Source: Nitrospira sp. (GTDB taxonomy: Bacteria > Nitrospirota > Nitrospiria > Nitrospirales > Nitrospiraceae). Taken from it: 64,000 bases of DNA. The stretch spans positions 248,001-312,000 of the forward strand of contig JAFEBI010000004.1 in NCBI GenBank assembly GCA_018242725.1. Reading direction: 5' to 3'. The notes below the pieces were generated by a model, which was not told the DNA's origin, made no database searches, and saw nothing but the letters and a program-made list of their open reading frames with translations. The position numbers and the translations under genes are program-made. Positions 10,974 through 20,106 of the stretch are shown piece after piece (positions within the stretch are counted from its first letter, which is position 1; each line of letters opens with the position of its first letter).

Positions 10974-12341
10974 TTAGAACAGATACCTCAAGCTAAATGT
11001 CCCCAGATGTACGGAGGCGTGATACGACCCGTCCACGGTGGGATTTATATTACCGACGACTGTTCGTGACTCGTAGAACCACTCCTGATAGGCAAGATCA
11101 ACCCCTATTCCCTTTGGTGACAAAAGAGTTTCTCCACCGCATGGGATGAGGCCCAAAAATCGACCAGCGCCTTTACACAAGAAGCCCACGCCAACGGACA
11201 AGGTATGCGCCGGCAACGAAATCGTACCGGGGCTAAAAGTCCGATCGGGGATGGGGTCCTGCGTATAGGTATACCCTGATCGGACCGCGACCTCCCAATG
11301 CGGTAGCCAGTTCGACTTCAACCATCGATACTGGGTCCCCAACGCAATTACCGGTACATTCTCCCATTGCTGAGGTTGAGGAATCGTCGCCCCGTTAGAC
11401 AGACGAATATCAAGAGTCCTATTCTGACTCCATCCCACGTACTCGACATCGAGTTCCAGCTTCCACTCCCGTTCACTGGTGCGTACAGGCCAAACCGCTA
11501 CAGCTCCAGTAAATATTTGAGGTAGTACAAGATTGGTTGAGGCATCGGCTATTTTTGTTCCGTTAATCAACAAGGATCCGTCCAGGGGGACGACCGCCTG
11601 ACTGCGGTACACAAATCCAATGGAAACCATAGGCAACCCAGCACTATTTCTCAAGGGAGAATAGAGAGCACTCACGGTTACTCCCGCGCCGGTTCCTTTA
11701 CCATTGAATTCGACGGATGCCCCAGCTGGAATACCAAAGGCTCCAGAACTAATCTGTTTCTGCTCTGCATGCCCCTCTCCCAAAAAGCTGGCAAAGGTAT
11801 AAATGTCGGCGCTCACACCTACAGAGAAAGCATCGCTTACTTTGTACGCTATCGTGGGTTTGATATCGATTAATGGAAGAGCAGCGGAGGTTACCGCGGT
11901 GTTGAAGGGGCCGTCGACTGGATACCGATTGTTCGAACCAAATGGAGATGTCAGTCCCAGGCCGATGGTCACTGATGAGAGTTTCGTTCTAACGAGAGAC
12001 CCAAGATTCGCACTCCAATAAAAGTGACTAGGGGGGGGAGTAGAAACACTATCACCAAGATCACCGCGACTATCAATGCCTGTCAGCCCTTGAGACTTGA
12101 TCGAGCCACCCATGACGTTGGTTCCAAGATAGGCTTGAATGCCGGGGACCTGAATCAAACCTGCAGGATTAAAATGGATGGCGGAGGGATCATCTGCTTG
12201 AGCTGCGAATGCATTTCCCTGCCCTGTTGCCGCTGCCCCTTGAGGCTGGAACCTTATTGCCTGAGCCGACGCATTCTCCGCAATCAGTACGGCCCATAAG
12301 CAGAAGCACGCAGATCTATGAAAACAATTAGCCATATCCAT
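10974..12341 (-). CDS. FadL/TodX-type outer membrane transport protein (OMPP1 family)
   Basis: A 455-residue outer membrane beta-barrel of the FadL family, which carries long-chain fatty acids and other hydrophobic molecules across the outer membrane. It has a signal peptide (cleavage near ENASA-QAI), the FadL N-terminal hatch signature (AAATGQGNAFAAQADDPSAI then NPAGL) and a C-terminal aromatic residue (LRYLF) typical of barrel proteins. It is divergent from the luxR gene, sharing a 192-bp intergenic region with two 20-bp dyads. FadL proteins are known to take up long-chain acyl-homoserine lactones in Sinorhizobium, so a link with the neighbouring quorum-sensing genes is conceivable but unproven. 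Confidence 0.88.
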   Translation of the reverse strand: MDMANCFHRSACFCLWAVLIAENASAQAIRFQPQGAAATGQGNAFAAQADDPSAIHFNPAGLIQVPGIQAYLGTNVMGGSIKSQGLTGIDSRGDLGDSVSTPPPSHFYWSANLGSLVRTKLSSVTIGLGLTSPFGSNNRYPVDGPFNTAVTSAALPLIDIKPTIAYKVSDAFSVGVSADIYTFASFLGEGHAEQKQISSGAFGIPAGASVEFNGKGTGAGVTVSALYSPLRNSAGLPMVSIGFVYRSQAVVPLDGSLLINGTKIADASTNLVLPQIFTGAVAVWPVRTSEREWKLELDVEYVGWSQNRTLDIRLSNGATIPQPQQWENVPVIALGTQYRWLKSNWLPHWEVAVRSGYTYTQDPIPDRTFSPGTISLPAHTLSVGVGFLCKGAGRFLGLIPCGGETLLSPKGIGVDLAYQEWFYESRTVVGNINPTVDGSYHASVHLGTFSLRYLF

Positions 12342-12533: not shown

Positions 12534-13328
12534 ATGACGACTGATATCCTTCCTTTTCCTGGTCATACCTTCGAAGGGGCCTCGAGAGCCGACCTACAGA
12601 ATCTACTTGAAATCATGCACTATACGGCGATGGCTGAGACCACGCAGGATGTCAAAGACATATTGGTCCGCACTAAGAAGTTTCTTCCGTTCGAACATCA
12701 GATTGGTGGCCTTGTTCGGTTGGGTGTAGATAGCACATTTGAGGGATTCTCGGATGTATTGAACGTAAGTTTTCCGCAGATTTGGCTCTTTCAGTATTGG
12801 AGAAACGGCTACGGAGAGGTCGACCCAGTTCTCCATGAATTGGTACGCTCCCAAAAGGCGCAAGTTTGGAACAAGGTGTATTCCAATGTAAAAACAGAAA
12901 AAGAAAAGATGTTCGTTGAAACCGCGGCATCGTTCGGACTCAGTCACGGAGTAACGGTCGGGTCACTGGATCCTTCCTGCAAGGTAGCTTCATTCTTCGC
13001 ATTCGCCGGAGGTGATCCAGCTGAGCATGCCCGGTATGTGGAACTGTTAGATTATGTCGGTCAACACCTCCATTTAGCCCTCGTAAGGTCTTCCTCAAAA
13101 ATTGCCTGTTCTACTGACCAGTGTGTGAACAAGCTTTCCCCAAAAGAAGTCACGATCTTGAATTGGATGAAAGTTGGAAAGACCAACTGGGAAATCGCAC
13201 AAATTACGGGGGGCACTGAACGTACCATTCGTTTTCATGTTGAGAGCATCTTCTCCAAGTTAAATGTCACGTCTCGGACTCAAGCCGTTGCCGTCGCAGT
13301 ACAACACGGACTTCCCAACTTGGCATAG
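12534..13328 (+). CDS. luxR: LuxR-family acyl-homoserine lactone receptor / transcriptional regulator
   Basis: A 264-residue quorum-sensing regulator. The N-terminal autoinducer-binding domain (about 20-165) carries W84, Y88, D97, P98 and W112, which reproduce exactly the spacing of TraR W57, Y61, D70, P71 and W85, the AHL pocket residues; G139 fits the conserved Gly. The C-terminal GerE helix-turn-helix (about 185-250) has LSPKEVTILNWMKVGKTNWE and the RTIRFHVESIFSKLNV recognition helix. It faces a convergent luxI and is divergent from a FadL-like gene. When bound to AHL, such proteins usually dimerise on 20-bp lux boxes; matching sites occur at 14760 and 14953. The intact pocket argues against a signal-independent solo. 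Confidence 0.92.
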   Translation: MTTDILPFPGHTFEGASRADLQNLLEIMHYTAMAETTQDVKDILVRTKKFLPFEHQIGGLVRLGVDSTFEGFSDVLNVSFPQIWLFQYWRNGYGEVDPVLHELVRSQKAQVWNKVYSNVKTEKEKMFVETAASFGLSHGVTVGSLDPSCKVASFFAFAGGDPAEHARYVELLDYVGQHLHLALVRSSSKIACSTDQCVNKLSPKEVTILNWMKVGKTNWEIAQITGGTERTIRFHVESIFSKLNVTSRTQAVAVAVQHGLPNLA

Positions 13329-13349
13329 ATGATGTGCGTAATCATCTAT
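13325..13349 (+). terminator. Hairpin at the end of luxR (possible terminator)
   Basis: ATAGATGAT and ATCATCTAT form a perfect 9-bp stem with a 7-nt loop, starting at the luxR stop codon. A short T run (GATTTTATC) follows about 8 nt later, so it is an imperfect intrinsic terminator or an mRNA-stabilising hairpin. Confidence 0.4.
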
Positions 13350-13891
13350 ACAGACCGATTTTATCGTTCGAACTCTTACCTCGCACACCACTAACTGTAT
13401 TTACATCAAGACTCAATTTCCTGACGAATCAGGCGTTCCCCTATTGCCGCCTACCTACCAGTCAGTCCACAGCTCTCCGCCACAGAACCAGCTTTGGATG
13501 AGCACGGATGAACAGCTAGTGATTTGCATCCATCTAAATCGCTTCTGTCTCAAATAGGTTCCCATGCCTTTACAAGCCTGGACTTTAATTGATTGCGAGC
13601 GAGACTCATCCTGCTCCTGCGGAGCCTTGCTCTCACTCCCACTTGATTAGAAACCGCGCCTCAATCTCTACCCTCTGTTCCTCGTATATCTGTCATCACC
13701 GCTTCATCAAGTGGCATCATGCTACGCTTCGCCGGCCGAATGATGTGCTGGTAGGTTTGCCTTACACAGTTGGCTCCGTTCCGTACACCCTAAGCCCTCC
13801 GGTCTGTCCTACCCCAGAAGGCACCAGAGAAAATTATCCCCATGGCGATTGATTCATTACTGGGATATCATCTCAACGGCTCGGGTTTCAT
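13350..13891. other. Gene-free stretch between convergent luxR and luxI
   Basis: About 540 bp with no convincing coding sequence: open frames are short, lack ribosome binding sites and have no recognisable protein pattern. No tRNA or clear riboswitch is seen. It may hold untranslated 3' ends or a small RNA, but nothing positive supports this. Confidence 0.4.
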
Positions 13892-14665
13892 TTAGGCACA
13901 CACTGGTATGTCTCTTTGCGCCCTGCTTAATACGCCTACGCCAGGTAACACCGGAAAACTTGGTTCCGACTCTTTATATCCAGCAACTTTTCGCTTTACA
14001 GTGTTTCCTCCTGTCGTGGTAACAGTCGACATCCATTCCATTACCCGAGGACGTTTCCTGCCAAGAACCTTTTCGCATCGTACGATGTCCATGACGGCCG
14101 CGATTGATAGTGCACCCGCAGGAGGAAGTGCCACAGGAGGGCCTAGCGGGTCACAGGCGATAGCCATAGCGTTGAGTACTCGAAAGAACCGGTAGTCAAC
14201 TTCCATATAAAGAAATCGAACATCATGTGCCAAGGCCCAATGGTATATTCCTTTTACGAGGGTAAGTAAGAGTCGAGCAGATAACCCTTTGTCCTTAATG
14301 TCAGGATTGATAGCCAGCCTGGTAATCTCCGCTGTATCGCGTTCCTTCCTAAGAATATGACTCGATGGCAGCAACATACGCAGGTCTTGTTCAAGCATAA
14401 AGAGCCCGGTAGCAGGTAGTAGTCTCGCCATTCCATGGAGTGTACCGCTGGAGTCGAGAAGTCCAATCGATGTACCCCACAGGTCATACATGTCCATTTC
14501 CTGCCCATCATCTGTTGGTGGGACCCACCGCAGCGCTTCGGCAAAAACCTTATGCCGTAGCCGGTAAGCTTGAGTGAACTCGGCCTCCCCTTGAAGCGTC
14601 TTAACTAAAAACTCACCTTCGGAAAATGTGATTCCCTTCGCCTCTGCTACGGTTGAAGCATGCAT
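13892..14665 (-). CDS. luxI: LuxI-family acyl-homoserine lactone synthase
   Basis: A 257-residue autoinducer synthase that would join an acyl chain from acyl-ACP to S-adenosylmethionine and lactonise it. Conserved LuxI residues are visible: R37 and F41 (RLRHKVF), W47, D58 and D61 in the acidic stretch after PPTDDGQ, R81 (MARLLP), E113 and R116 (EITRLAI). The ATG at 14665 is preferred because a strong AAGGAGGT lies at 14670-14677; longer starts at 14758/14761 would overlap the lux box. It is longer than the usual 190-230 residues because of a C-terminal extension of low similarity. The ORF is convergent with luxR. A lux-box-like palindrome 95 bp upstream suggests positive feedback. The acyl chain length cannot be read from sequence. 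Confidence 0.92.
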   Translation of the reverse strand: MHASTVAEAKGITFSEGEFLVKTLQGEAEFTQAYRLRHKVFAEALRWVPPTDDGQEMDMYDLWGTSIGLLDSSGTLHGMARLLPATGLFMLEQDLRMLLPSSHILRKERDTAEITRLAINPDIKDKGLSARLLLTLVKGIYHWALAHDVRFLYMEVDYRFFRVLNAMAIACDPLGPPVALPPAGALSIAAVMDIVRCEKVLGRKRPRVMEWMSTVTTTGGNTVKRKVAGYKESEPSFPVLPGVGVLSRAQRDIPVCA

Positions 14666-14669
14666 AGCT

Positions 14670-14677
14670 ACCTCCTT
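14670..14677 (-). promoter_or_regulatory. Ribosome binding site that fixes the luxI start
   Basis: AAGGAGGT on the minus strand, 4 nt before the ATG at 14665. It is an almost perfect anti-16S match, far better than anything before the upstream ATG at 14758 or GTG at 14761. Confidence 0.8.
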
Positions 14678-14758
14678 AACGAATAGATTGATGTGGGAAC
14701 GAGTAAGACTGGTCGTCGAATGAAGGAGCGGGATGATTCCATCAGAGTTGGAATCCAT

Positions 14759-14808
14759 CACCTGGCGGACCCGCCAGGTGCGTTTCTGGTCACAAGCGCG
14801 TAGATACT
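14759..14808 (+). repeat. 50-bp promoter module, copy 1
   Basis: Direct repeat of 14952-15001, 44 of 50 positions identical. It comprises the lux-box-like palindrome, a spacer and a TAGATACT that would be a -10 on the plus strand, centred 34 bp from the palindrome centre, the spacing expected for a LuxR-activated class II promoter. Rightward transcription from here has no immediate ORF other than the kinase at 15061. Confidence 0.7.
14760..14779. promoter_or_regulatory. lux-box-like palindrome 1 (luxI-proximal)
   Basis: ACCTGGCGG and CCGCCAGGT form perfect 9-bp arms around an AC spacer (10-bp arms if 14759-14780 is counted). The outer ACCTG...CAGGT and overall length of 20 bp equal the classical Vibrio lux box (14 of 20 positions identical by my alignment). 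It lies 95 bp upstream of the luxI start and is the start of a 50-bp module repeated 193 bp further on. Being symmetric it could serve luxI on the left and a transcript going right. Confidence 0.75.
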
Positions 14809-14951: not shown

Positions 14952-15001
14952 CACCTGGCGGAGTCGCCAGGTGCATTCCTGGTCATAAGCGCGTAGGTAC
15001 T
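14952..15001 (+). repeat. 50-bp promoter module, copy 2
   Basis: Direct repeat of 14759-14808 in the same orientation. The substitutions fall mostly in the palindrome centre and the spacer, while the outer palindrome arms and the TAGRTACT element are kept. It precedes the histidine kinase start by about 60 bp. Confidence 0.7.
14953..14972 (+). promoter_or_regulatory. lux-box-like palindrome 2 (upstream of histidine kinase)
   Basis: ACCTGGCG and CGCCAGGT form perfect 8-bp arms around GAGT; counting flanking bases the arms are 10 bp (14951-14974). A TAGGTA at 14994-14999 is a plausible -10 with its centre 34 bp from the palindrome centre. This makes the kinase/regulator pair at 15061-16541 a predicted target of the LuxR protein. 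Confidence 0.72.
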
Positions 15002-15060: not shown

Positions 15061-15864
15061 GTGACAGAAGGTAAGGCCCGATTTCAATTACTAGATGGGG
15101 GAATGCGGTCAATTTCGGCGATCTCAATTCCACAGTCGGTACGGCCTCCGAAAGAATCGCTCAATATCTATCACTTGAAGCCTTGTGCAGGTGAATTAAC
15201 AACCGCATTTAAAGCGACTGAAAACCGCTTGAGCAAGCTCCTGGAAGACCGAATCCGTATCGGTCGCGATCTACATGACTCCGTATTGCAATCGTTATAT
15301 GCGCTAGGCTTGAGCATTGAAACAGCACGGCGGACTCGAAACCATCACACGCCAGAAGCAACAGAGACTAACGTCCGCATGATCCAACAGATCAATCAAC
15401 TCATTCATGAAGTCCGTGGGATGATTCGCGAGCTAGAGTCGGGAACTGTTCAGGAGTTTGACTTATCCACAGAACTGTCAGCTTTGTGTATGACCTACGA
15501 ACAAACAGGGCGCATGCAGGTAAAGCTCGATATCCAGCGTACTGCACTTGAGGTTCTCACGAACGAGGAAGAACGGGAAATCTTGAATATTGTACGTGAA
15601 GCTCTTAGTAATTGTGCCCGCCACGCCAACGCAACGCAGGCGACCGTCTCCATCCGTATGCGAGATATGAAAATTCGGGTGAGCATCAATGACGACGGAA
15701 TCGGATTTTCGTCGATAGTTGGGCAACCACGAGGATATGGGCTTGCCAATATGGAAGCTCGGACGAAACGACTGGGTGGAGTTTTTCGCGTCCTAGCCAA
15801 GACCGGAAAAGGCACGCAGATCATGGCAGAATTTTCAATGGAACCCTTACTGACATCCATATGA
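15061..15864 (+). CDS. Sensor histidine kinase, NarL/DesK class (HisKA_3), no obvious sensor domain
   Basis: A 267-residue soluble kinase. The HisKA_3 dimerisation/phosphoacceptor segment has RIGRDLHDSVLQSLYALGLS with phosphoacceptor His72; the HATPase_c domain shows an N-box (REALSNCARHAN), G1 (NDDGIGF) and G2 (GYGLANMEAR). The first 50 residues are not a known sensor and no membrane helix is visible, so input may come from another protein or simply from expression level. GTG start with a good ribosome binding site (GGAAGGTGGGAG). It overlaps the response regulator by 4 bp. The lux-box-like module just upstream suggests quorum control. Confidence 0.9.
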   Translation: MTEGKARFQLLDGGMRSISAISIPQSVRPPKESLNIYHLKPCAGELTTAFKATENRLSKLLEDRIRIGRDLHDSVLQSLYALGLSIETARRTRNHHTPEATETNVRMIQQINQLIHEVRGMIRELESGTVQEFDLSTELSALCMTYEQTGRMQVKLDIQRTALEVLTNEEEREILNIVREALSNCARHANATQATVSIRMRDMKIRVSINDDGIGFSSIVGQPRGYGLANMEARTKRLGGVFRVLAKTGKGTQIMAEFSMEPLLTSI

Positions 15865-16541
15865 AACACCCACAAACCAGCATTGTGCTCGTCGACGATC
15901 ATGAAATGGTCCGCCGAGGGCTGCGTGCCCTGCTTCATCTTGAAGCAGATCTTGCAATTGCGGGCGAGGCAGCAACCGTCGCCAGCGGTGTGGAGCTCGT
16001 CGAGCGACTGATGCCTCAGATGGTCTTGCTGGATGCAAAACTTCCCGACGCGTCGGTCACTGAAGCCATCCGCCGGTTGCTGGCCGTTTCACCAAAACTC
16101 CGAATTCTTATTCTCACCAGTTACGCTGAAGATACGACCGTCATGGCTGCCGTCCAGAACGGCGCCCATGGCTATGTACTCAAAGACGTTCGTATGGACG
16201 ACTTGATTCGAGCCATTCGCACGGTCGCCTCAGGTCAGGGCTATCTTGATCCCCGAGTGACACAGCAAGCGCTGCATTGGATTCGGACCAGTTCGCACCT
16301 GGGAGTCACGTCACAAGGAGTCTCTCGACTTTCTCCGCAGGAACGCTTAATCTTGCCGCTCTTGGCAGAAGGTAAAACCAATAAGGAAATTGCCGTCCAA
16401 CTACGCTTGAGCGACAAGACCATCAAGAACTATCTGGCCAATATTTTTGACAAGCTCCATGTGAAACGACGTACCGAAGCTGTGGCCTGGTTCATGAAGG
16501 AATCTCGTATGTCTAGTGCGAACCAAAGTCCGAAACTCTGA
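15861..16541 (+). CDS. NarL/FixJ-family response regulator
   Basis: A 226-residue two-domain regulator. The receiver domain (1-125) has acidic pocket residues DD12-13, phosphoacceptor Asp58 (VLLDAKLPD), Thr/Ser in ILTSYAED and Lys in YVLKDV. The LuxR-type helix-turn-helix (about 155-215) has LSPQERLILPLLAEGKTNKE and SDKTIKNYLANIFDKLHV. The start overlaps the kinase stop (ATGA), so this is the cognate partner. It is a close relative of the regulator at 19423, suggesting duplication of the kinase-regulator unit. Target genes are unknown. Confidence 0.92.
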   Translation: MKHPQTSIVLVDDHEMVRRGLRALLHLEADLAIAGEAATVASGVELVERLMPQMVLLDAKLPDASVTEAIRRLLAVSPKLRILILTSYAEDTTVMAAVQNGAHGYVLKDVRMDDLIRAIRTVASGQGYLDPRVTQQALHWIRTSSHLGVTSQGVSRLSPQERLILPLLAEGKTNKEIAVQLRLSDKTIKNYLANIFDKLHVKRRTEAVAWFMKESRMSSANQSPKL

Positions 16542-16718: not shown

Positions 16719-19430
16719 ATGAGTTTACCGCTAGAGACCGACCGTTCAACGATCAGCGAGCTCACCCAACTGCGCCATCAGATTCTGGAACTACAGCAGG
16801 CGCTCGTTCATGCCAAACAAGACTGTCCCTCAATGCCGACCACGGTATTCGAGGCTACTCACGTGGGGACGTGGGAGTGGAACAGCCAGACAAATCGGGT
16901 GACCTGGTCTCATAAAACTGAACAGATCTTCGGTCTTTCCCCTGATATGCTTGATCACTCATATGAAGGGTTCCTTGCTCTCGTGCATCCTGATGACCGC
17001 CATTGTCTCAGTGCCGCCATGACGAAGGCCATCAATGACCGTTCTCCCTATAGCGTAGAATATCGCATCATCATTCCTACTGGAGCCACTCGATGGGTAG
17101 CCTGCCATGGTCATGCCACATGCAGTGAGAATGGGCCGGTGTCGGGCATGATGGGCACGATTGAAGATATCACCGCCCGCAAAGAATTCCAGTTCGCCCA
17201 GCGCGCTCTCCGAGAAAACGTGGAACCTCTTGCCCGAGAACGAACAGCCGGATCAGAACAGGCGGTCCATGACCTGAAGCCTGAAATTGCGCAAAGACGA
17301 CAGGCTGAATCGGTACTCAAAGCCAGTGGGCAATACTACCAATTCCTCTATGAGCAAACCCCCTTCATATATTTCACGCTCTCCCCTGATGGCACCATGC
17401 TATCCGTCAATAATTTTGGAGAGGATCAACTCGGATACCAGAAAGAAGATCTCATCGGCCAATCCATCTTGCAGCTATTTGACCAGAAAGATCACCAGAC
17501 TGTGCTGGGGCAGTTGCTCACGTGCGCCGCCAACCCCTACGCTGTGTTTCAGCGGGAAGTTCAACAACTCCGGAAAGACGGAGGCAGAACATGGGTCAGC
17601 GTGCGCGCGAGGGCCATCCACGACCACACACATCAGCTCCTCGTTCTTATGGTCTGCGAGGATGTGACCGAGCACAAACGGACGGAAGCATACATCCGAG
17701 AAAGCGAGACTCGATGGAGAGCGCTTTATGAACATGCGGGGGTTGGTATCGCCCAACTGAGCATCGACGGACGATTTCTTCGAGTCAATCCACACCTCTG
17801 CGCGCTGCTAGGATACTCATCGGAGACACTACGTCAGCGAACGTTTCAAGACCTCACGCACCCGGATGACCTCAAAGCGAATCTTGCCTACCTTGATGAA
17901 CTACTCACGGACAAGCGTCATTCCTTCTCCATGGAGAAACGGTATCGTAGAAGCAACGACACCTGGGCGTGGGTCGACTTGACCGTCTCGCTTGTTCAGA
18001 GCGGCTCGTCCGATCAGGACTATTTGATCGCGATCATTCAGAACATTGACGATCGCAAACATTCCTACTCACTCCTTCAAGCCGCTATGAATTCCGTCAC
18101 GGACGGGCTACTCGCCGTCGACCGACAGGGAATGGTCACCAGTTTAAACCAGCGATTCTTACACCTATGGAATATCCCCCTGACGCTCGTGGACAACAGG
18201 AACGATGAGCAGCTGTTGAACTTTGTGGTCGACCAGCTTCAGGAGTCCGAGGCATTTTGGCACACGGTCCGTGAGCTGTCTGCGCATCCGGAGAAAAAAA
18301 GTTTCGACGTCCTCACTTGCAAGGATGGGCGAGTGTTTGAACGGTATTCTCACCCCCAGATCCTTGACAACGAAATCGTCGGCCGTGTCTGGAGCTTTCG
18401 GGATATCACCGAACACAAGCGCGCCGAGCAAGCATTACGGGAGAGCGAACTACGGCTCCAGCGCTTCGTCGCCAAAGCCCCTGTCGGGCTCTGCATTCTC
18501 GATGAAAACTGGCGCGCAATCACCGCGAATCTTGCCTTTTGCCAATTGACCGGATACGAGGCTCATGAAATCATCGGCAGCACATACGCGTTGTATACCC
18601 ACCCAGAAGATCTCTCTGCCAGTATTCGATTGACTGAAGAATTCTACCGTGGAATCAGATCCGGCTACACCTATGAGAAGCGGTATATTCATAAATCAGG
18701 TGAAATTATTTGGGTTCTGGTTAAAACCACCAGGGTCGACCTACCTGGCCGGCAAGGTCCACTGCTGCTTGCTGCAGTACAGGATATTACCGATCGTAAA
18801 CGAGCGCTGGAAGAACGAGAGCAACTCAGTCGAGACCTACATGATAACCTTCTTCAAGCCCTGTACGCGGTCGGGATGCAGCTTGAAGCCGGCAAGCTTG
18901 CAATGGGCCGGTCTCCGCGCCTGGCGAAAACGCACATGTCACAGTCTATCCGCCAGCTGAACGGTCTCATGGTCGATGTTCGACGGTTTATTACCCTACT
19001 CACAGAACGGACCTCCGTTCAAATGGACTTTGGACAGTCACTTCATGAACTTATTGCCTCCACGACCGACGCCGAAGGTGTCGCAACGCAGCTCGACATT
19101 ACGAGCCCCGTGCTCTCCTTTATCACTCCTCAGATCGGAGAGCAGCTATTGAACATTGCGCGCGAAGGCCTGAGCAACAGCTTGCGCCATGCTCGCGCTT
19201 CTCGTCGCTGGCTGCATCTGAGCCTCGCTCACAACTCGATCCGGTTACTCATCGGAGACAATGGCATCGGCTTCTCTCCTTCACGCAAACGCCGTACTGG
19301 AGGAGGACTTGCGAATATGGCCGCTCGCGCACGACACTTGGCTGCTTCCTTTACTCTCGAAAGCGTACCAAGACATGGGACCACGATCACGGTCGACGTG
19401 CCGTTGAAAAAGGACGCGCTGCATGAGTAG
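16719..19430 (+). CDS. Multi-PAS sensor histidine kinase, NarL class
   Basis: A 903-residue cytosolic kinase with about five PAS/PAC modules in tandem (roughly residues 45-150, 205-325, 330-445, 450-565 and 570-695, each ending in an IT[DE]xKR-like PAC tail), then HisKA_3 with SRDLHDNLLQALYAVGMQ (phosphoacceptor His near 708) and HATPase_c with an N-box (REGLSNSLRHARA), G1 (IGDNGIGF) and G2 (GGGLANMAAR). No transmembrane helix is seen, so it probably senses redox, oxygen or small ligands inside the cell. No haem- or flavin-binding residue can be assigned. It overlaps the next regulator by 8 bp and pairs with it. Promoter not obvious; the gene starts 177 bp after the preceding regulator. Confidence 0.9.
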   Translation: MSLPLETDRSTISELTQLRHQILELQQALVHAKQDCPSMPTTVFEATHVGTWEWNSQTNRVTWSHKTEQIFGLSPDMLDHSYEGFLALVHPDDRHCLSAAMTKAINDRSPYSVEYRIIIPTGATRWVACHGHATCSENGPVSGMMGTIEDITARKEFQFAQRALRENVEPLARERTAGSEQAVHDLKPEIAQRRQAESVLKASGQYYQFLYEQTPFIYFTLSPDGTMLSVNNFGEDQLGYQKEDLIGQSILQLFDQKDHQTVLGQLLTCAANPYAVFQREVQQLRKDGGRTWVSVRARAIHDHTHQLLVLMVCEDVTEHKRTEAYIRESETRWRALYEHAGVGIAQLSIDGRFLRVNPHLCALLGYSSETLRQRTFQDLTHPDDLKANLAYLDELLTDKRHSFSMEKRYRRSNDTWAWVDLTVSLVQSGSSDQDYLIAIIQNIDDRKHSYSLLQAAMNSVTDGLLAVDRQGMVTSLNQRFLHLWNIPLTLVDNRNDEQLLNFVVDQLQESEAFWHTVRELSAHPEKKSFDVLTCKDGRVFERYSHPQILDNEIVGRVWSFRDITEHKRAEQALRESELRLQRFVAKAPVGLCILDENWRAITANLAFCQLTGYEAHEIIGSTYALYTHPEDLSASIRLTEEFYRGIRSGYTYEKRYIHKSGEIIWVLVKTTRVDLPGRQGPLLLAAVQDITDRKRALEEREQLSRDLHDNLLQALYAVGMQLEAGKLAMGRSPRLAKTHMSQSIRQLNGLMVDVRRFITLLTERTSVQMDFGQSLHELIASTTDAEGVATQLDITSPVLSFITPQIGEQLLNIAREGLSNSLRHARASRRWLHLSLAHNSIRLLIGDNGIGFSPSRKRRTGGGLANMAARARHLAASFTLESVPRHGTTITVDVPLKKDALHE

Positions 19431-20106
19431 GCCGCCAACGATTCGACTTGTGATCGTCGATGACCACGAAGTCGTGCGAATCGGTCTCTGTGCCGTCCTC
19501 AATCTGACGCCTGGACTAAAAGTCATTGGGCAGGGGAAGCGAATGATAGAGGCCCAAAAGCTTTGCGTTCGCCTGAAACCGGACATCGTCTTGCTTGATA
19601 TCCGATTACCTGACGGAAGCGGTGTGGATGCAGCCCGTGAGATCCTTGCCCGATGTCCGACAACCCGAGTATTGTTTCTCACGAGTTTCGCCGATGATCA
19701 TACGGTGCTCGAGGCAGTTCTCGCCGGCGCTCATGGATATCTCCTCAAAGACATCGCTTCTCAGACGCTCGTGCGCGCTATTCGAACGGTTGCAGCCGGA
19801 AAGACGCTGATGGACTCTCGCTTGTCCCAACACACGGTGAACTGGCTGAAGCACGTCCCCACCGAGCCGGGACAATCTAAACGTCCCCTCCTCTCGCCTC
19901 AAGAACAACGGCTCCTTCCGCTAGTTGCCAAGGGCCTCACCAACAAAGAAATCGCTCAATTTTTGCGACTCAGCGAAAAAACGGTCAAGAACTACCTTGC
20001 CAATATCTATTCCAAGCTGAGTATAGGTCGCCGATCGCAGATCGCTGCCTTCTACGCCGGAAGCTTCAAGGGGTCTGACTCTCGCCTAACGCCTGGTCGC
20101 GCCTAA
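19423..20106 (+). CDS. NarL/FixJ-family response regulator
   Basis: A 227-residue regulator: receiver (1-125) with DD13-14, phosphoacceptor Asp59 (VLLDIRLPDGSG), FLTSFADD and YLLKDI; C-terminal LuxR-type helix-turn-helix with LSPQEQRLLPLVAKGLTNKE and SEKTVKNYLANIYSKLSI. Its start lies inside the end of the multi-PAS kinase gene (8-bp overlap), so it is the cognate output protein. Sequence similarity to the regulator at 15861 in the helix-turn-helix is high, so the two may recognise related DNA. Confidence 0.92.
   Translation: MSRPPTIRLVIVDDHEVVRIGLCAVLNLTPGLKVIGQGKRMIEAQKLCVRLKPDIVLLDIRLPDGSGVDAAREILARCPTTRVLFLTSFADDHTVLEAVLAGAHGYLLKDIASQTLVRAIRTVAAGKTLMDSRLSQHTVNWLKHVPTEPGQSKRPLLSPQEQRLLPLVAKGLTNKEIAQFLRLSEKTVKNYLANIYSKLSIGRRSQIAAFYAGSFKGSDSRLTPGRA

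Follow-up and report, generated by a model that had tools for sequence, protein, structure and literature searches.

A Nitrospira-type AHL quorum-sensing locus with a predicted two-box HK1-RR1 output and a probable exchangeable signal cassette

What does quorum sensing control in Nitrospira, organisms of key importance as nitrite oxidisers and as comammox bacteria? The question is raised here by a luxR-luxI pair in the window, by which we mean the whole stretch of 64,000 nucleotides that was analysed. A preliminary description had pointed out the pair and a lux-box-like palindrome, and had found the box and regulon of the arrangement not obvious. AHL quorum sensing in Nitrospira, to which it also referred, is already published (PMC8553950).

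Analysis with Pfam identified Autoind_bind (1.9e-18) and GerE (2.9e-17) domains in the product of luxR (12534–13328, + strand). Its ligand-pocket residues W84, Y88, D97, P98, and W112 and the pocket G are all present, as in LuxR-type AHL receptors, and the closest solved relative is CviR (1.8e-38), so that the protein is read as an AHL-binding LuxR-type activator. The luxI gene (13892–14665, − strand) starts at the ATG at 14665, which is preceded by the Shine-Dalgarno sequence AAGGAGGT. Its product has an Autoind_synth domain (8e-12, 45.5 bits with a cut-off of 24) and the invariant catalytic residues of LuxI-type enzymes (R37, F41, W47, D58, D61, R81, E113, and R116), and is a predicted AHL synthase. 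Relatives with a solved structure are TofI (3p2f) and LasI. The protein scores under the NCBIfam TraI equivalog cut-off and is therefore not TraI. The catalytic residues are kept in 62/62 homologs of the genus and the pocket residues in 61/61 LuxR proteins of luxI loci, the four exceptions being the LuxRa proteins of luxI-less loci. The pair is thus complete and convergent, as first described, and every LuxR and LuxI residue named at that time was recovered in the translations; convergence is, however, the rule throughout the genus and not the departure from the usual order that it had been taken for.

The window's assembly (4.02 Mb, 34 contigs) contains one luxI copy, and those of its close relatives that bear a name are MAGs of Nitrospira. 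The spacer between luxR and luxI (13329–13891) is ∼560 bp long in the window and similar in a close relative (L064), while it measures tens of bp in most relatives; no convincing gene was found in the window's spacer. A search for AMO, as a marker of comammox versus nitrite oxidiser, gave no match, and the controls were likewise without a match.

Two lux boxes were identified between luxI and the gene that diverges from it. Box 1 (ACCTGGCGGACCCGCCAGGT, 14760–14779), whose palindrome is perfect, sits 94 bp ahead of the luxI ATG, and Box 2 (ACCTGGCGGAGTCGCCAGGT, 14953–14972) is its duplicate. Together with the promoter DNA that follows them, the two are identical in 44 of 53 bases. They are the only exact arm matches in the window, for which the chance expectation is 0.34 even with three mismatches allowed. 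All 16 arm bases are those of ACCTGGCGGTTCCGCCAGGT, the sequence through which the LuxR protein NspR1 acts in another Nitrospira, as verified by experiment (PMC8553950). The identity of the arms lends good support to the predicted autoinduction of a complete AHL pair, and the palindrome reported upstream of luxI is real. The span first described nevertheless stops short of Box 2 and of the divergent histidine kinase and response regulator genes, HK1 and RR1, that Box 2 faces.

Class II lux-type promoters, as known for LuxR and TraR, have a box in place of the −35 element and the same spacing to the −10. The boxes described here have this register: each occupies the −35 position, and a −10-like hexamer begins 22 bp beyond it. 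When 61 loci were aligned on the 20-bp palindrome, TAcAaA was found at +22 to +27 on the HK1 side and TGG-AACCAT in the identical register on the luxI side. In the window the luxI promoter has the extended −10-like element TGGAATCAT (14733–14741, − strand), whose hexamer spans +22 to +27 relative to Box 1. Toward HK1, the −10-like hexamers are TAGATA for Box 1 (14801–14806, + strand) and TAGGTA for Box 2 (14994–14999, + strand, +22 to +27), the latter belonging to the HK1 promoter. A further palindrome, GATGGAACCATC, lies between the box and luxI; it coincides with the position of the extended −10 and is seldom found elsewhere in the loci, and was therefore rejected as a second operator and read as core promoter. 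In the published Nitrospira, NspR1 with C8-HSL induced the divergent gene's promoter 196.6-fold, against 14-fold for the nspI promoter (PMC8553950); the stronger response of the divergent gene fits the HK1 side having the better −10.

HK1 (15061–15864, + strand) is a HisKA_3-HATPase_c kinase with no recognised sensor domain or membrane helix (hydropathy maximum 0.67). It overlaps by 4 bp with RR1 (15861–16541, + strand), which has a Response_reg domain followed by GerE, and the two form a two-component pair of the NarL/FixJ type. The usual next genes are a multi-PAS HisKA_3 kinase (16719–19430) and the NarL-type regulator RR2 (19423–20106), both on the + strand; neither has a box of its own, and we infer that they belong to the circuit. 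On the other side, luxR adjoins a gene for a FadL/TodX-type outer-membrane channel (10974–12341, − strand; Toluene_X 104 bits with a cut-off of 29.7), beyond which lies uvrC. From its adjacency to luxR-luxI and its co-inheritance with them, this channel could possibly serve for AHL import.

In the GTDB genus of the window, luxI is present in 62 of the 79 genomes, many of the compared genomes being MAGs. The usual gene order, with few exceptions, is uvrC, the fadL-type channel gene, luxR converging with luxI, one or more boxes, HK1, and RR1, an arrangement that is near-universal among the luxI-bearing genomes. HK1 is the divergent neighbour of luxI throughout the genus, and the two genes are found together (60/62 versus 7/17; p 7e-7 in a Fisher test, with kinship ignored). 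A box lies near 61 of the 63 luxI loci (one box in 44, two in 15, and three in 2). Of the 175 genomes of the family, 82 have exact boxes and none has the reversed control pattern. Some loci depart from this order. In one (L141, G014), a multi-PAS kinase directly follows luxI, and HK1, RR1, and the box are jointly absent. In another (L189, G086), the box lies between luxI and a lone response regulator, and HK1 and the FadL-type channel gene are absent.

Box 1 and Box 2 are the only exact boxes in the window's own genome, and scanning that genome for sites with two to three mismatches gave no excess over the reversed control (20 versus 22). The sole two-mismatch site falls within an isocitrate dehydrogenase-like coding gene, and a wider direct regulon found no support. 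With two exact boxes and weaker sites not above control, the direct regulon at the tested stringency looks to be the locus itself, with the output passing through a phosphorelay. The earlier view of box and regulon has been superseded, the box by its publication in 2021 (PMC8553950) and the regulon by the comparison, which yields HK1-RR1 as a conserved target. Exact extra boxes were seen in other genomes. A second one in G086 (L190) runs over the start of a gene of the aldolase-II family. One in G068 (L194:6403) lies 33 kb from luxI, and the gene for a PA5033-family protein follows ∼150 bp downstream of it. In another genus, two lie ∼150–170 bp upstream of PilZ-domain genes (L198:5852 in G136 and L200:6294 in G137), a possible link to c-di-GMP there.

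The boxes, HK1, and RR1 stay in place while the signalling genes beside them change. In one pair of loci (L049 and L054), identities are 99% for UvrC, 94% for FadL, 91% for HK1, and 96% for RR1 versus 43% for LuxR and 45% for LuxI. Nucleotide identity drops from ∼90–95% to 30–60% where the channel gene ends toward luxR, and rises again close to the start of luxI and the box. The same mosaic pattern was observed for L053/L043 and L100/L053. Pairwise identities of UvrC, FadL, HK1, and RR1 are mutually correlated (Spearman 0.63–0.81), as are those of LuxI and LuxR (0.66), while LuxI and LuxR correlate with the flanks at 0.21–0.42. Defining LuxI classes at 60% identity gave five classes, which on the trees of LuxI and LuxR require 4 changes, versus 16 on the uvrC tree (minimum 4); the trees are quick LG+G4 trees, and uvrC does not amount to a full species tree. 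Among the 38 loci where all six genes are present, the changes number 3 for LuxI and LuxR, 4 for FadL, 13 for uvrC, 14 for HK1, and 15 for RR1 (minimum 3). Imposing the other trees on the LuxI data costs 151 (LuxR), 458 (FadL), 2611 (uvrC), 2712 (HK1), and 2971 (RR1) log-likelihood units; the uvrC tree is itself about 400 units away from HK1 and RR1. The window is a case in point, as its nearest UvrC relatives (94%) carry a different class (LuxI 39%).

Gene trees and mosaic alignments show that luxR-luxI, often with the FadL-type channel gene, has evidently been swapped between species as a cassette with conserved flanks. Signal and receptor are exchanged as a unit at one locus and the output is kept, which is the pattern of a pherotype. 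The classes would then differ in signal. Between classes, LuxR identity is 50% in the ligand domain and 76% in the DNA-binding domain, a difference suggestive of class-specific signals with little cross-talk. The partial co-exchange of the channel gene is suggestive as well, since FadL of Sinorhizobium takes up long-chain AHL (PMC9938287). The classes might instead be an old trans-species polymorphism, maintained by selection and sorted among species, and several of them do occur side by side in close species. Within a class, however, identities reach 84–90% across differing UvrC backgrounds, which leans toward transfer, and we regard sorting of old alleles in place of repeated transfer as unlikely.

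Genomes without luxI show what else can occupy this position. In four of them (G023, G038, G050, and G067; L101–L104) the genes in the slot encode a LuxR-like protein, a FabF-like ketosynthase, a P450, an unknown protein of ∼440 aa, and a LuxR that lacks the ligand domain. HK1-RR1 is retained there, as is the box apart from a change of its first base; TATGAT lies ∼23 bp beyond the box, and the ligand-domain-less LuxR keeps its recognition helix. The slot content is possibly a module for a non-AHL signal or metabolite. LuxR DNA-binding domains alone, as in V. fischeri LuxR, can activate without inducer. By analogy with this inducer independence, species of this type may run HK1-RR1 without AHL. 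Genes for the ketosynthase, the unknown protein, and the LuxR-like protein also lie beside an intact luxR-luxI in two loci (L040 in G003 and L191 in G089), and the P450 has a weakly similar counterpart in G003.

The presence of a box upstream of HK1-RR1 in luxI-less genomes, and before the lone response regulator of G086, could also mean that RR1 or some other regulator, instead of LuxR, uses the boxes as operators, the two-component system controlling itself and luxI. We consider this improbable, as NspR1, a Nitrospira LuxR, binds and activates through the same sequence (PMC8553950), and four luxI-less genomes with a box still encode a LuxR with the recognition helix ERT(I/V)RFH. The complementary case is G019 (L138), where luxI is absent and no LuxR with that helix is found at the locus; there the box has two changes even though HK1-RR1 is intact.

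Within the locus, conservation is lowest for LuxI, LuxR, and HK1 (mean identities 0.52, 0.55, and 0.59), and the divergence of LuxR and LuxI could in principle be the ordinary fast vertical evolution of signalling genes. This explanation is very hard to uphold, because the mosaic edges are abrupt between near-identical flanks, the classes reappear in distant backgrounds (the 16 changes against a minimum of 4), and the tree of LuxI matches that of LuxR but not those of the flanks. A hairpin or repeat-element nature of the palindromes, without any function as operators, is scarcely credible, for although their perfect GC-rich arms could pair, conservation is 90% or more at every arm position and 100% at 12 of the 16, around a 4-bp centre of 62–82%, where pairing alone would permit compensatory change, and they stand in promoter register on both sides.

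We propose a model for this locus to which we assign a probability of roughly 0.8. In it, LuxI would make an AHL, and LuxR with the AHL would bind the two identical-arm boxes in the luxI-HK1 intergenic region, each standing in for a −35 element. Box 1 would drive luxI, giving autoinduction, and could also serve a + strand promoter, while Box 2 would drive the HK1-RR1 operon. The group-level output would be relayed via RR1 instead of many lux boxes, and luxR-luxI, often with the FadL-type channel gene, would be an exchangeable signal cassette beside stationary boxes, HK1, and RR1. AHL production by the window's LuxI, LuxR binding in its organism, and the targets of RR1 are all parts that we infer from sequence. 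A broader proposal is that the uvrC-HK1 interval is a slot for exchangeable signal modules (the FadL-LuxR-LuxI classes and, in some species, the ketosynthase/P450 module beside a ligand-domain-less LuxR) in front of a constant lux box and HK1-RR1. Such a slot would be to AHL signalling what pherotypes are to peptide systems, its modules passing by exchange from species to species. We see the arguments for and against this as evenly balanced.

The conserved box offers a direct target for Nitrospira quorum sensing, namely a two-component pair. If true, cassette exchange extends the pherotype question of diverse signal alleles with a shared response from Gram-positive peptides to AHL, and there are natural species pairs that differ in little besides LuxI-LuxR at the locus. 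Our literature search, which covered journals available without subscription, found no report of LuxI/LuxR pherotypes or allele exchange.

The closest known system is NspI/NspR1 of an activated-sludge Nitrospira (Lim et al., 2021, PMC8553950), for which use of the box with C8-HSL was shown by reporter and gel shift, both divergent promoters being induced and NspR1 binding the box only with RNA polymerase present. The two systems share the box arms and a box common to luxI and a divergent gene, and would also share autoinduction and the C8-HSL response. They differ in that the window has two boxes and its own LuxI of the predicted AHL-synthase type. The divergent gene of NspI/NspR1 was called GGDEF/EAL, whereas it encodes a HisKA_3-HATPase_c protein in seven genomes examined here with the identical 20-mer; the published name may reflect a mis-annotation or a gene that is different there. 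According to the passages on this topic in the NjpI/NjpR paper on N. japonica NJ1 (PMC5767232) and in a Nitrospirales survey (PMC12342949), a single luxI/luxR locus occurs in Nitrospira, as in the window; those passages report AHLs of C10–C14, mainly C12, for strain NJ1 (PMC5767232) and describe no box, HK1-RR1 target, or cassette exchange. The Sinorhizobium channel (PMC9938287) is likewise an outer-membrane protein of the FadL family, unlike which the channel seen here is suggested to import AHL by adjacency and co-inheritance. The exchange itself resembles the PlcR-PapR pherotypes of the Bacillus cereus group (PMC7267880), agr, and ComQXPA, where the signal and the ligand-sensing part vary from lineage to lineage and the DNA-binding part and targets are kept, and the contrast between the two LuxR domains has the pattern of the PlcR pherotypes. 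Those are peptide systems established by function, whereas the present one is a LuxI/LuxR (AHL) system read from genomes. The type of system and its box are already known; the new elements are a two-component target that is conserved, a promoter region built around two boxes, and cassette exchange against a constant box and output.
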